Source: Xanthomonas sp. F10
GTDB taxonomy: Bacteria > Pseudomonadota > Gammaproteobacteria > Xanthomonadales > Xanthomonadaceae
DNA: 64,000 nucleotides
Assembly (NCBI RefSeq): GCF_014206815.1
Contig: NZ_JACHNP010000002.1
Coordinates: 496,001 to 560,000, forward strand
Reading direction: 5' to 3'
The translations under genes were made by a program, and so were the position numbers. Shown here in pieces: positions 44,235-57,375 of the stretch. Numbering within the stretch: the stretch's first letter is position 1; each line of letters begins with the position of its first letter. A model generated the notes under the pieces. That model was not told the DNA's origin and made no database searches. It saw nothing but the letters and a program-made list of their open reading frames with translations.

Positions 44235-44347
44235 AGCGGTGGAGCCGGGATTGGGGATTGGGGATTGGGAAAAGCCGGCTAGGCCGGTGCACCCGCAATG
44301 CGCGCGTCCTGGCTTCTACGAATCCCCAATCCCGCTGCCCAATCCCC
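44203..44347. repeat. Two-armed heptad repeat element H1 (GGGATTC/G type)
   Basis: Left arm pieces at 44203-44231 and 44246-44270 (GGGATTGGGGATTGGGGATT) and right arm at 44319-44347 (CGAATCCCCAATCCCG then CCCAATCCCCG) are mutually complementary. The core of about 50 bases starts AAAAGCCGGC and ends GGCTTCTACG. It fills the suxC-suxR gap between the two convergent stops. Confidence 0.8.
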
Positions 44348-45457: not shown

Positions 45458-46198
45458 CTAGGCCATGTGCAGGCCGCCGTTGACCGCGTAGTCGGCGCCG
45501 GTGACGTAGGCGGCCTCGTCCGAGGCCAGCCAGGCGCACAGCGCGGCGACTTCCTCGGGCTTGCCGAGCCGGCGCAGCGGCACCGAACTGGCCAGGCGGT
45601 CGAGCACGTCCGGCGGGAAGCCGCTGATCGCCGCGCTGGCGATGTAGCCGGGCGACACCGTGTTGACGGTGACCCCGCGCGAGGCCACTTCCTGCGCCAG
45701 CGCGCGGCTGAAGCTCTGCATCGCCGCCTTGGCGGTGGCGTAATTGATCTGCCCGATCTGGCCCTTCTGCGCGCTGACCGCGCCGATGTTGACGATGCGG
45801 CCCCAGCCGCGTGCGGTCATGCCATCCACCACCTGCTTGGTGATGTTGAACAGCGCATGCAGGTTGCTGGCGATCACCGCCTGCCAGTCCTCGCGGCCCA
45901 TCTGCCGGAACAGCATGTCGCGACTGCCGCCGGCGTTGTTGACCAGCACGTCGATCTCGCCGACCTCGGCCTTGACCTTGGCGAAGGCGGCCACCGTCGA
46001 ATCCCAGTCGGTGGCATTGCCCTCGGAGGCGATGAAGTCGAAGCCGAGCTCGCGTTGCTCGCGCAGCCACGCCGACTTGCGCGGCGAGTCCGGCCCGCAG
46101 CCGGCGACCACGGTATGGCCGTTGCGCGCCAGCTTCTGGCAGATCGCGGTACCGATGCTGCCCATGCCGCTGGTGACGTAGGCGATTCTTAGGGTCAT
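45458..46198 (-). CDS. Acetoacetyl-CoA reductase-like short-chain dehydrogenase (PhbB homologue)
   Basis: A 246-aa SDR protein that aligns end to end with NADPH-dependent acetoacetyl-CoA reductase (MTLRIAYVTSGMGSIGTAIC, NTVSPGYIA, TGADYAVNGGLHMA). Tyr153 and Lys157 of the active site are present (NYATAK). Position 140, where PhaB has the catalytic Ser, is Ala (NIGAVSAQKGQ), with a Ser at 142 instead. Activity may therefore be weak or altered. No PHA synthase gene is nearby. It lies downstream of the citrate transporter on the same strand, separated by hairpin element H2. GGAGC precedes the ATG. Confidence 0.85.
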   Translation of the reverse strand: MTLRIAYVTSGMGSIGTAICQKLARNGHTVVAGCGPDSPRKSAWLREQRELGFDFIASEGNATDWDSTVAAFAKVKAEVGEIDVLVNNAGGSRDMLFRQMGREDWQAVIASNLHALFNITKQVVDGMTARGWGRIVNIGAVSAQKGQIGQINYATAKAAMQSFSRALAQEVASRGVTVNTVSPGYIASAAISGFPPDVLDRLASSVPLRRLGKPEEVAALCAWLASDEAAYVTGADYAVNGGLHMA

Positions 46199-46227
46199 GA
46201 AGATGCTCCGTGGCAGGTGGGGAACGC

Positions 46228-46333
46228 CGGGACTCGGGACCGGGGACCCGGGACCCGGGGAACGGAAGTCGGTAAAACTTTAGTCACAGCGCTGCGCTCT
46301 TCCGGGTCCCGGGTCCCGGGTCCCGGGTCCCGG
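46228..46333. repeat. Two-armed heptad repeat element H2 (GGGACCC type)
   Basis: Left arm 46228-46260 (GGGACCGGGGACCCGGGACC and neighbours), right arm 46302-46333 (CCGGGTCCCGGGTCCCGGGT, then CCCGG). The 43-base core, AACGGAAGTCGGTAAAAC to GCTGCGCTCTTCC, matches the H3 core. It lies between citM and phbB on the minus-strand transcript. Confidence 0.85.
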
Positions 46334-46335
46334 CT

Positions 46336-47661
46336 TCATCGCGCCACCGGATACAGCGCAAACAGCAGGCTGCCCGCCATCAGCAAAAGTGAAATCAACA
46401 CCGCCCACTTCAGGGTGAAGCGCTGGTGGTCGGCGAAGTCGACCTTGGCCAGGCCGACCAGCAGGTAGGTGGACGGCACCAGCGGGCTGAGCAGGTGCAC
46501 CGGTTGCCCGGCCAGCGAGGCGCGGGCCATCTCCACCGGAGTGATGCCGTAGTGGCTGGCGGCGTCGGACAGGATCGGCAGCACGCCGAAGTAGAAGGCG
46601 TCGTTGGACATGAAGAAGGTGAAGGGCATGCTGGCCAGCGCGGTGATCACCGCCAGGTACGGGCCCCAGGCGTCGGGGATCACCGCCAGGAAGCTGCGCG
46701 ACATCGCCTCGACCATGCCGGTGTTGGAGAGGATGCCGGTGAACACGCCGGCGGCGAAGATCAGCGACACCACCGACAGCACGTTGCCGGCATGGTTGAC
46801 CAGGCGCCGACGCTGTTCGGCCAGGTTCGGATAGTTGATCAGCAGCGCCAGGGCGAAGCCGATCATGAACAGCACCGGCATCGGCAGCACGCCGATCACC
46901 AGCGCGGCCATCAACGCCAGGGTCAGCACCAGGTTCACCCACAGCAGCCGCGGCCGCTTGATGTCCTCGGCGTCCTCCACCGTGGGCAGCGCCTCGCCGT
47001 CGTCGGCCACGCTGCCGTCCATCCAGGCATCGCCGGGCAGCGTCACCACGCCGAGGCGCCGCCGCTCCTTCATGCCCAGGTACCAGGCCAGCACCAGGAT
47101 GCCGGCGATCGCCAGCGCCATCGCCGGCACCAGCGGCACGAACACGTCTGCCGGGTCCACGTGCAGCGCGGTGGCCGCGCGCGCGGTCGGGCCGCCCCAC
47201 GGCGTCAGGTTCATCACGCCGCCGGCGAGGATGGTCACGCAGGTCATGTTCAGCGCGTTCATGCCCAGCCGCCGGTACAGCGGCAGCATCGCCGAGACAG
47301 TGATCATGTAGGTGGTGGAGCCGTCGCCGTCGAGCGAGATCAGCAACGCCAGCACCGCGGTGCCGACCACGATCTTCATCGGGTCGCCCTTGACCAGGCG
47401 CAGGATGCGCCGGACCAGCGGATCGAACAGGCCAGCGTCGATCATCACCCCGAAGTACAGGATCGCGAACATCAGCATGACGCCGGTGGGCGCGATCTTC
47501 TTGATCCCTTCCAGCATCATCTCGTTGATGCCGGTGCCGAAGCCGCCGGCCAGCGCGAACACGATCGGCACGATGATCAACGCGACCAGCGGCGACAGCC
47601 GCTTGCTCATGATCAGGTACATGAAGGTAATGACCATTCCGAAACCGAGCGCGGTCAGCAT
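46336..47661 (-). CDS. Citrate-metal (CitMHS-family) transporter
   Basis: A 441-aa inner-membrane protein with about eleven hydrophobic segments. The family pattern is seen in MLTALGFGMVITFMYLIMSK, ISLDGDGSTTYMITVSAMLPLY, GGVMNLTPWGGPTARAA and STYLLVGLAKVDFADHQRF. CitMHS proteins take up citrate complexed with divalent metal or protons. It is preceded by an OprO/P porin gene and divergent TctDE-like regulators, so citrate or related tricarboxylates are the likely substrate. It stands between hairpins H2 and H3. Confidence 0.93.
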   Translation of the reverse strand: MLTALGFGMVITFMYLIMSKRLSPLVALIIVPIVFALAGGFGTGINEMMLEGIKKIAPTGVMLMFAILYFGVMIDAGLFDPLVRRILRLVKGDPMKIVVGTAVLALLISLDGDGSTTYMITVSAMLPLYRRLGMNALNMTCVTILAGGVMNLTPWGGPTARAATALHVDPADVFVPLVPAMALAIAGILVLAWYLGMKERRRLGVVTLPGDAWMDGSVADDGEALPTVEDAEDIKRPRLLWVNLVLTLALMAALVIGVLPMPVLFMIGFALALLINYPNLAEQRRRLVNHAGNVLSVVSLIFAAGVFTGILSNTGMVEAMSRSFLAVIPDAWGPYLAVITALASMPFTFFMSNDAFYFGVLPILSDAASHYGITPVEMARASLAGQPVHLLSPLVPSTYLLVGLAKVDFADHQRFTLKWAVLISLLLMAGSLLFALYPVAR

Positions 47662-47683
47662 GGAAGTTCCTTGTGGTGAAAGG

Positions 47684-47790
47684 CCGGGGCCCGGGGCCGG
47701 GGACCCGGGGCCCGGAGAGCGAAGGTCGATAAAGCCTCAGGGACAACCCTGCGCTTTTCCGGGTCCCGAGTCCCGAGTCCCGGGTCCCGG
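47684..47790. repeat. Two-armed heptad repeat element H3 (GGGACCC type)
   Basis: Left arm 47684-47715 (CCGGGGCCCGGGGCCGGGGA and onward), right arm 47759-47790 (CCGGGTCCCGAGTCCCGAGT and onward). The core AGCGAAGGTCGATAAAGC to CCTGCGCTTTTCC aligns with the H2 core at 31 of 43 positions without gaps by eye. It lies between the porin and citrate transporter genes. Confidence 0.85.
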
Positions 47791-47793
47791 CAC

Positions 47794-48984: not shown

Positions 48985-49095
48985 GTCCCCTCCCAGGTGC
49001 GTGTCGCAGCGATTGGATCGGTCCGCCAGCGCATGCCGCGGACCGGCGTGGACGCAGCCTAGTCGGGCGTAGCTGTCATCGACCTGTCGGTGGGG

Positions 49096-49225
49096 CCGGG
49101 ATTGGGGATTCGGGATTCGGGATTGGTAAAAGCACCGTGCGTGCTGTCTGCCCTGACGCAGGCGCGTTAGCATCCGCGTACGGAGCCGCTCTTGCGAATC
49201 CCCAATCCCGAATCCCCAATCCCCG
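49096..49225. repeat. Two-armed heptad repeat element H4 (GGGATTC/G type)
   Basis: Left arm 49096-49126 (CCGGGATTGGGGATTCGGGA, then TTCGGGATTGG) and right arm 49195-49225 (CGAATCCCCAATCCCGAATC, then CCCAATCCCCG) are complementary. The core is about 68 bases. The right arm ends five bases before the ATG of the TctD-like gene. The rest of 48985-49229 contains no gene. Confidence 0.82.
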
Positions 49226-49229
49226 ACCC

Positions 49230-49934
49230 ATGCGCCTGCTCCTGGTAGAAGACAACGCCGATCTCGCCGATGCGATCGTGCGGCGCATGCGCCGCAGCGG
49301 GCATGCGGTGGATTGGCAGCGCGATGGGCTGAGTGCGGCCGGTGTGCTGCGCTACCAGCGCTTCGATCTGGTGGTGCTGGACATCGGCCTGCCGGGGCTG
49401 GATGGGCTGCGCGTGCTGGCCGGGCTGCGCGAGCGCGGCGATACCACGCCGGTGCTGATGCTGACCGCGCGCGACGGCATCGAGGACCGGGTGCAGGCGT
49501 TGGACGTGGGCGCCGACGATTACCTGGGCAAGCCGTTCGATTTCCGCGAGTTCGAGGCGCGCTGCCGGGTGTTGCTGCGGCGCAACCGCGGCCAGGCCAG
49601 CGAAGTGGTGCAGCTTGGCGGCTTCGCCTTCGACAACGCCGCGCACAGTGTCAGCCTGGACGGCACGCCGATCGACTTGCCCAACCGCGAATACCGCCTG
49701 CTGGAGATCCTGATCGGCCGGCTCGGCCAGGTGGTGGGCAAGGACGAGATCGGCAACGGCCTGTTCGGCTTCGACGACGAGGCCGGGCCGAACGCGATCG
49801 AGCTCTACGTCGGGCGCCTGCGCAAGAAGCTGGCCGACGCGCCGCTGCGCATCGTCACCGTGCGCGGCGTCGGCTACAAGCTGGAGGCGGCCGCGGCGCC
49901 GCCGGATCCGGCGGCAGCGGACGTCGATGGCTGA
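49230..49934 (+). CDS. Response regulator TctD-like (OmpR family)
   Basis: A 234-aa regulator: receiver MRLLLVEDNADLADAI with phosphoacceptor Asp in LVVLDIGLPGLDG near residue 51, LTARDG and YLGKPFDFREFEAR, then a winged-helix output domain (DLPNREYRLLEIL, NAIELYVGRLRKKL). It is the first gene of a three-gene cluster with the kinase and a periplasmic binding protein. Divergence from the porin-citrate operon suggests it controls it. No Shine-Dalgarno sequence is seen: repeat H4 abuts the start codon. Confidence 0.92.
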   Translation: MRLLLVEDNADLADAIVRRMRRSGHAVDWQRDGLSAAGVLRYQRFDLVVLDIGLPGLDGLRVLAGLRERGDTTPVLMLTARDGIEDRVQALDVGADDYLGKPFDFREFEARCRVLLRRNRGQASEVVQLGGFAFDNAAHSVSLDGTPIDLPNREYRLLEILIGRLGQVVGKDEIGNGLFGFDDEAGPNAIELYVGRLRKKLADAPLRIVTVRGVGYKLEAAAAPPDPAAADVDG

Positions 49935-56929: not shown

Positions 56930-56940
56930 AAGCGGCGCAT

Positions 56941-57375
56941 CCTTCTCCCCCGGGAGAAGGTGCCCGCAGGGGCGGATGAGGGTGCGGCGGCCCGGGGGCT
57001 TCCTCTCTCAAGGGCAAGGCGGGGAGGGCTTGCCAACTGCGCATGAGGTCTCAGGTGGCGCTGCGCGCGCCGACCCTCACCCCAACCCCTCTCCCGACGG
57101 GAGAGGGGCTAAAGCGCGACGCTCCGGCTTGTCCTTCTCCCCTCGGGAGAAGGTGCCCCGCAGGGGCGGATGAGGGTGCGGCAGCCCGGGGTTCCTCCCT
57201 CAAAAGCAATGGCTGGGATGCCCGCCAACTGCGCATGAAGCCTCAGGTGGCGCTGCGCGCCCCGGACCCTCACCCCAACCCCTCCCCCGGGGGAGGGGGC
57301 TAAAGCGCGACGCTCCGGCTCTTCCTTCTCCCCTCGGGAGAAGGTGCTCCGCAGGGGAGGATGAGGGTACGGGCG
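56941..57375. repeat. Tandem repeat of about 191 bp, two full units and a partial third
   Basis: The phrase CCTTCTCCC starts units at 56941, 57133 and 57324, periods of 192 and 191. Each unit contains CGGGAGAAGGTGC...CGCAGGGGCGGATGAGGGT, a CAACTGCGCATGA stretch, GGTGGCGCTGCGCGC, the CCCTCACCCCAACCCC motif, and AAAGCGCGACGCTCCGGCT. The same modules occur once at 2006-2076. No ORF is convincing inside. It separates the DUF5713 gene from the convergent hybrid kinase. Confidence 0.9.

Follow-up and report, generated by a model that had tools for sequence, protein, structure and literature searches.

Two inverted-repeat elements, H2 and H3, occupy the gaps of a gene row in Xanthomonas sp. F10, and they raise the question of what such elements are and what they might do between genes. 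In the window, i.e. the whole stretch of 64,000 nucleotides that was analysed, a minus-strand row leads from a porin via a citrate:proton symporter (the transporter) to an acetoacetyl-CoA reductase-like SDR, and H3 and H2 fill its two gaps. Genes were called with a codon-based caller made for this analysis. Judging from gene order and spacing, porin, symporter and reductase most likely form a single operon. The features are as follows.

45458..46198, minus strand: acetoacetyl-CoA / 3-oxoacyl reductase-like SDR (PF13561; TIGR01829)
46226..46258, minus strand: H2 downstream arm (operon sense strand), GGGACYN heptads
46259..46301, minus strand: H2 core, 43 nt, ACGGAAGTCGGTA subfamily, orientation B relative to the operon
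46302..46334, minus strand: H2 upstream arm, starting 1 nt past the transporter stop codon
46336..47661, minus strand: citrate:proton symporter (PF03600; TIGR00784)
47683..47716, minus strand: H3 downstream arm
47717..47757, minus strand: H3 core, 41 nt, a diverged member of the H2-core (ACGGAAGTCGGTA) subfamily, orientation B
47758..47791, minus strand: H3 upstream arm, starting 2 nt past the porin stop codon
47794..48984, minus strand: Porin O/P family protein (PF07396)

Both elements show the architecture that the earlier note had described, with heptad arms inverted around a core of about 43 bases (43 nt in H2, 41 nt in H3). The arms are complementary at 31 of 33 positions in H2 and at 28 of 34 in H3. 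They are built from GGGACCC, GGGACTC, GGGACCG and GGGGCC forms and contain GGG tracts; the heptad GGGAATC is absent from both elements when their sequence is read directly. Aligned without gaps, the whole 112-nt units are identical at 92 of 112 positions. The cores agree at 30 of 43 positions, the best of 20,000 shuffles reaching 25; this corrects an earlier count of 31, while the reported prevalence of transitions stands (10 transitions and 3 transversions over the 43 positions). Likewise, arm heptads had been said to differ in number and sequence, of which the difference in sequence holds and the numbers turn out about equal (4.6-4.7 copies each by tandem-repeat analysis). Folded as sense RNA, H2 reaches -85.3 kcal/mol (z -9.4) and H3 -77.9 kcal/mol (z -5.7), with 0 of 200 shuffles as good in either case.

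Very stable intergenic hairpins are what an intrinsic terminator or attenuator between the genes would offer. The hairpin is present, but the U-tract is absent after both H2 and H3: on the sense strand, the longest T run is TTT within the 27 nt (H2) and 21 nt (H3) that separate the elements from the next start codon. We consider a terminator or attenuator highly improbable. A terminator pattern scan returned 0 sites, but it covered loops of 3-8 only and was blind to the H2/H3 hairpins. Rfam yielded 11 matches, every one under the gathering score and mostly to microRNA models, and phage records contained no match to the element.

The heptads belong to a large repeat family. A search of the window's genome with the 112-base H2 query gave at least 130 matches, many as inverted pairs (best 40 of 65 candidates), and GGGRNYNGGGRNYNGGG occurs there 444 + 369 times versus 66 + 39 for the reversed control. 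A stem finder identified 31 two-arm elements in 800 kb of this genome and 17 in 400 kb of genome G012; pairing by position alone gave 30 array pairs and left 60 arrays unpaired. Rehm 2015 (PMC4692102) described GGGAATC or (GGGANTN)n heptad arrays in two Xanthomonas strains, often with four units, which are intergenic, near stop codons and mostly transcribed. Inverted pairs numbered 70 and 75 in the two genomes, mostly at identical places, and only a few were found in Nostoc; transcript starts and stops were reported at the repeats, repeat oligonucleotides formed G-quadruplexes in vitro, and the function was left open (PMC4692102). H2 and H3 share with these repeats the tandem heptads, the presence of at least two units, the intergenic location and the many copies per genome. 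The published search pattern requires T at position 6 plus at least one GGGAATC, so that the GGGACYN subtype of H2 and H3 falls outside (GGGANTN)n, whereas other arrays of the window's genome do fit GGGANTN. Judged by these sequence patterns, H2 and H3 are therefore a GC-rich GGGACYN variant of the published Xanthomonas heptad inverted repeats.

The family is patchily distributed. Among 41 genomes scanned on both strands, GGGANTNGGGANTNGGGANTN matches 162-657 times in 17 of the 19 genomes of the genus and just 3 and 1 times in the other two (G002 and G016), and any match was found in 7 of the 22 genomes outside it, with a reversed control of 0-10 per genome except in G032 (11) and G036 (22). 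The congeners G036 and G025 carry 402 matches (reversed control 22) and 1, respectively. Such patchiness would be expected of selfish or neutral repeat cassettes that spread, are swapped by recombination and survive after stop codons where they do least harm, conferring no benefit on the host. A RAYT as the driver of the heptads was rejected, as there is no simple dependence between PF01797 and heptad count: PF01797 was not found in G002, G016 and G025 (1-3 heptad matches), nor in G035 with 24 matches, and it is present in nine genomes with 0-1 matches (G020, G026, G027, G030, G031, G034, G037, G038 and G040). In G001 we observed 31 PF01797 matches, the best 21 of which are near-equal in score and each contain one in-frame TAG in the matched stretch.

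Copies of the core were sought in five genomes with a 13-mer of the H2 core at up to two mismatches, and 30 loci were opened. The scripts covered 22 of these and five transporter loci, which makes the resulting count a lower bound for the sister genomes: at least 23 core copies, all with heptad arms, comprise H2, H3, eight in both slots of G001, G007, G008 and G017, and 13 elsewhere in those four genomes. The eight remaining loci are one- or two-mismatch matches in G000 and G008, among them L209 with a core match inside a gene and no arms. In the window's genome, no further core copy was found with this 13-mer, which matches exactly in H2 only, has 0 one-mismatch matches and 38 two-mismatch matches versus 113 for the reversed control; the pattern misses the more diverged H3, and copies equally diverged could escape it. 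Blastn-short with both cores on 27 loci around H2-element matches of the window's genome (L009 being H2 itself) retrieved only 14 nt in L011. Further core copies, for which the earlier note had asked, are thus found in sister genomes, with none found in the window's own. Its view of a defined, inherited element as opposed to chance palindromes is borne out by the armed copies there and by the filling of both slots in five genomes, although copies at other loci are equally what neutral spread would leave behind. Ten of the 13 copies outside the operon have both neighbours called, and eight of these ten sit between convergent genes; some are mutual orthologs.

The orientation of the core varies. 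In G000, G007, G001, G017 and G008 it reads B, B, B, B, A in the transporter-reductase slot and B, B, A, A, A in the porin-transporter slot. Between G007 and G008, core identity is 0.93 in the P slot and 0.95 in the R slot with opposite orientation in both, for which in situ inversion and replacement by another copy are both explanations; identities across slots, at 0.88-0.90, do not discriminate between the two. Opposite orientations fit a neutral history and count against a function at mRNA ends. Two similar elements might also have arisen if one intergenic stretch had recently been duplicated locally, with H2 giving rise to H3 or vice versa, and the mean within-genome P-R identity of 0.82 does lie slightly above the means for P-P, R-R and cross-genome P-R (0.78). 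These values are so close, however, that a recent duplication is not indicated. Furthermore, the core is present at both slots in five genomes and, with arms, at other loci, and the cores nearest to G007_P and G007_R are G008_P and G008_R, respectively. We regard such a duplication as very unlikely.

To follow one slot across species, we compared 18 loci with a close transporter homologue (the window's genome and 17 relatives; 41 genomes searched, 20 with any match) and the best 80 of 564 named transporter loci; four genomes occurred twice and were each reduced to a single copy. Of 40 Xanthomonas loci, 39 have heptads in the transporter-reductase slot. A gap of 92-233 nt with heptads on both sides is seen in 25/25 loci titled Xanthomonas and in 14/14 other loci of the genus, the window's own included. 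Retention at this level argues against purely neutral cassettes. Several loci count against a function at the mRNA end: X. boreopolis (L052, titled [Pseudomonas] boreopolis and now Xanthomonas) has a 46-nt gap without the element, which also fits neutrality; L059 has weak arms of one heptad per side and L039 mixed single heptads; and 37 of 38 loci titled Stenotrophomonas lack the element in gaps of 15-40 nt, L054 being the exception. One record titled Bacillus subtilis (L081, JAHREJ010000012.1) contains a Stenotrophomonas-like locus and is probably contaminated or mislabelled.

Arms at this slot fall into three types, ATT, AAT and CC. On a tree built from transporter and reductase for 42 heptad-bearing loci (39 of the genus, L054, L113 and L122), in which 12 of 39 inner branches are weak, each side undergoes a minimum of 18 changes of arm type. 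Left and right arm types nevertheless agree in 39 of 42 loci (18 ATT, 15 AAT, 6 CC), the others being an ATT/AAT mosaic (L034), a mixed locus (L039) and a locus that lacks the right arm (L113). Among independent pairs, both arms change together in 7 or 8 of 8 cases (p 0.008-0.016). Because cores also differ among the AAT, ATT and CC types, the whole cassette is the unit that changes. As far as alignments and tree can tell, this shows that whole hairpins of different kinds replaced one another at one slot many times. Arm-by-arm correction within one hairpin was tried as an explanation and rejected: when arrays are paired by position, the partners share their heptad type in 30/30 cases, and within a type they are no more alike than permuted partners (CC 0.945 vs 0.950; ATT 0.915 vs 0.914; AAT 0.865 vs 0.886), so that arms match by subtype and not by element-specific correction. 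A AACTCCGAAGGAGTT hairpin holding the likely reductase ribosome-binding site was observed in the same slot of ATT/AAT loci (e.g. L106 6478-6492) and was not seen in CC-type loci.

In the X. arboricola complex (seven loci), closely related strains carry different whole cassettes between much alike flanks. Within 450 nt, 0/33 upstream and 0/37 downstream SNP columns cleanly split AAT from ATT carriers, although these SNPs are sparse and longer exchange tracts remain compatible. The transporter stop codon is TGA with AAT and TAG with ATT, with L106 as the one exception, and L101 (ATT) and L106 (AAT) differ at 1/200 nt upstream and 4/200 nt downstream. Among the matches listed (best 40 candidates per genome), full AAT cassettes at 92% or more occur only at this slot of their three carrier genomes, and three ATT genomes hold only arms or alignments of ~70%; the ATT cassette at 96% or more is likewise confined to the slot in its three carrier genomes, with at most 81% in further long matches. 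This favours exchange between strains over ectopic copies within a genome as the probable source of cassettes. One could go further and view the post-stop gap as a dock into which heptad hairpin cassettes fit interchangeably. Two old alleles (AAT and ATT, with their own cores) would then run side by side through many Xanthomonas species and be exchanged near the outermost heptads; allelic recombination over very short tracts, under selection for a hairpin, might do this, or else recombination machinery that recognises the heptad arms. We offer this as a speculative scheme that is more probably wrong than right. In the porin-transporter slot, a pattern check found a different palindrome instead of heptads in 4 of 41 loci. 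It is TGTAGGAGCGGCTTCAGCCGCGA in L036 and L042, a palindrome that also flanks the sole PF01797 gene found in the window's genome, and a relative of it in L054 and L052, which is compatible with a slot where a hairpin is tolerated or favoured.

Which part of the cassette is constrained was measured for two types. In the ATT module (10 loci), divergence is 0.0125 in the left arm, 0.064 in the right arm, 0.115 in the core and 0.150 at fourfold sites; in the AAT module (9 loci, without L059 and L061, whose arm lengths changed, and with the right arm measured over 22 nt only) the values are 0.058, 0.010, 0.142 and 0.135, respectively. Over both modules, 15/115 arm columns are variable versus 46/118 core columns (p 6e-6); since the modules had been selected on their heptad type and excised by pattern, and the AAT right arm covers 22 nt only, there is a bias toward conserved arms, and the direction is clear while the size is perhaps inflated. 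In ATT and AAT cassettes, which are types other than the CC of H2 and H3, core divergence thus appears close to that of synonymous sites, with less change in the arms. This pattern lends no support to the core as the working part of the element. Nor would slippage or homogenisation of neutral repeats make arms slower than the core of their own cassette, or be expected to keep the odd heptad GGCATTC, which is retained in the left arm in 10 loci of one ATT module. This heptad also bears on an action as DNA, in which a G-quadruplex or i-motif, a cruciform or a protein-binding array would affect replication, supercoiling or transcription: it breaks the G-tract (GGC) in 10/10 loci, so that a four-tract G-quadruplex is not conserved on that strand.

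The location of the elements was analysed next to gene starts and stops, including two further elements of the window:

44254..44333, no strand assigned: two-arm heptad element, ATT type, between two convergent genes
49091..49230, no strand assigned: two-arm heptad element, ATT type, in the divergent gap between porin and a response regulator, ending at the regulator start codon

Among 140 two-arm elements (orthologs included), 84 lie in gaps between codirectional genes, 18 in convergent and 21 in divergent gaps, 7 inside called genes and 10 at edges. Those in codirectional gaps, again including orthologs, start at a median of 8 nt past the stop codon (quartiles 4-9) and end at a median of 22 nt before the next start. 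Of gaps of at least 60 nt in two genome samples, 32/385 codirectional, 5/111 convergent and 2/139 divergent ones hold an element (codirectional vs divergent p 0.004; codirectional vs convergent p 0.22), six elements inside called genes being left out of this count. Placement beside stop codons speaks against an action as DNA, while the depletion in divergent gaps could reflect promoter avoidance by neutral repeats. The two window elements in a divergent and a convergent gap count against a function at mRNA ends. A tandem repeat of period 192 (2.3 copies, 88% matches) was also observed in the window at 56933-57372.

Selection on RNA pairing should yield more G-U pairs. Arm mismatches read in the sense direction comprise 49 G-U versus 85 A-C in the 84 elements, and 34 G-U versus 41 A-C in the 43 elements outside the ortholog set, i.e. 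no excess but rather a deficit. No compensated changes were found in a fixed register in the ATT and AAT modules (9 loci each; L125 was left out, and L094 has extra upstream bases). Together with the missing T run after H2 and H3, the lack of G-U enrichment leaves the role in transcript processing or attenuation that the earlier note had suggested without support from these tests. Titration of CsrA/RsmA by GGA motifs every 7 nt, a general background idea, was set aside because the motifs lie in stems. The absent G-U signal suits neutral cassettes, which we hold to be a serious possibility, if below an even chance. The lack of an RNA strand bias and the indifference to core orientation suit an action as DNA as well, to which the oligonucleotide G-quadruplexes seen in vitro lend some plausibility (Rehm 2015, PMC4692102); given its two difficulties above, we judge it improbable.

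Our preferred reading, held tentatively and at somewhat less than even confidence, is that H2 and H3 are intercistronic hairpins which mark the 3' end of the upstream cistron, resembling REPs in action without being RAYT-REPs. It ranks first, though only narrowly above the neutral one, on four grounds: where the elements lie, the constraint on cassette arms, a slot that most species have kept filled, and the starts and stops of transcripts reported at such repeats (Rehm 2015, PMC4692102). Each element would be a cassette of heptad arm, spacer core and inverted heptad arm that fills the intercistronic gap and begins 1-2 nt after the stop. Transcribed with the operon, it would form a stem of ~30 pairs in the mRNA, which may block 3'-5' exonucleases, be cut by RNase III or stop some polymerases. 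As an outcome, the cell would produce porin, transporter and reductase at unequal levels. Any of many strong stems with suitable heptad grammar could do this, leaving arm type and core free to change. The structure, placement and kinship of the elements, their matching arm types and the replacement of cassettes at one and the same slot are observed directly, as is, for two cassette types other than that of H2 and H3, the slower change of arms than of core; the action as RNA is what we infer. Intergenic regions of Xanthomonas are very rich in heptad repeats, and the species comparison yields testable claims on their function: the arm rather than the core is constrained (in the two types measured), the whole cassette is the unit of change, and the slot is filled in 39/40 Xanthomonas loci. 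Should the hairpins determine how much each operon gene yields relative to the others, strains could readily retune their operons by exchanging cassettes.

Several known systems share features with these elements. The STRR heptanucleotide repeats of cyanobacteria are tandem, G/C-rich and intergenic, and in these respects they are like H2 and H3. The inverted arms resemble the terminal inverted repeats of MITEs, compared on that feature alone. In Lysobacter, a hairpin with the heptad GGAGTGA and an inner boundary like GTAAAAGC was observed in the same gene gaps (L123 6330-6461; L116, gap upstream of the transporter). The available text of Rehm 2015 (PMC4692102) does not mention a core, arm-type matching, cassette replacement, core orientation or arm and core rates, and as far as the open-access literature goes, the core, arm-type matching and cassette replacement appear to be undescribed. 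REP/RAYT systems (PMC3733652) likewise involve intergenic palindromes of high copy number, with mRNA stabilisation and termination as proposed roles. REPs, however, are GTAG-tagged palindromes of 20-40 bp, whereas H2 and H3 have long heptad arms and a 41-43-nt core, and a short palindrome with a GTAG-type tag is absent from both when their sequence is read directly. The flanks read of the sole PF01797 gene in the window's genome contain no heptads but TGTAGGAGCGGCTTCAGCCGCGA-type palindromes. The Correia elements (CREE/NEMIS) of Neisseria are likewise inverted repeats about a conserved core, with more than 120 copies, RNase III binding and evidence of mobility (PMC2649163). Compared by description only, H2 and H3 differ from these in that their arms are tandem heptads, and in the cassette types measured (ATT and AAT) the core is the fast-evolving part.
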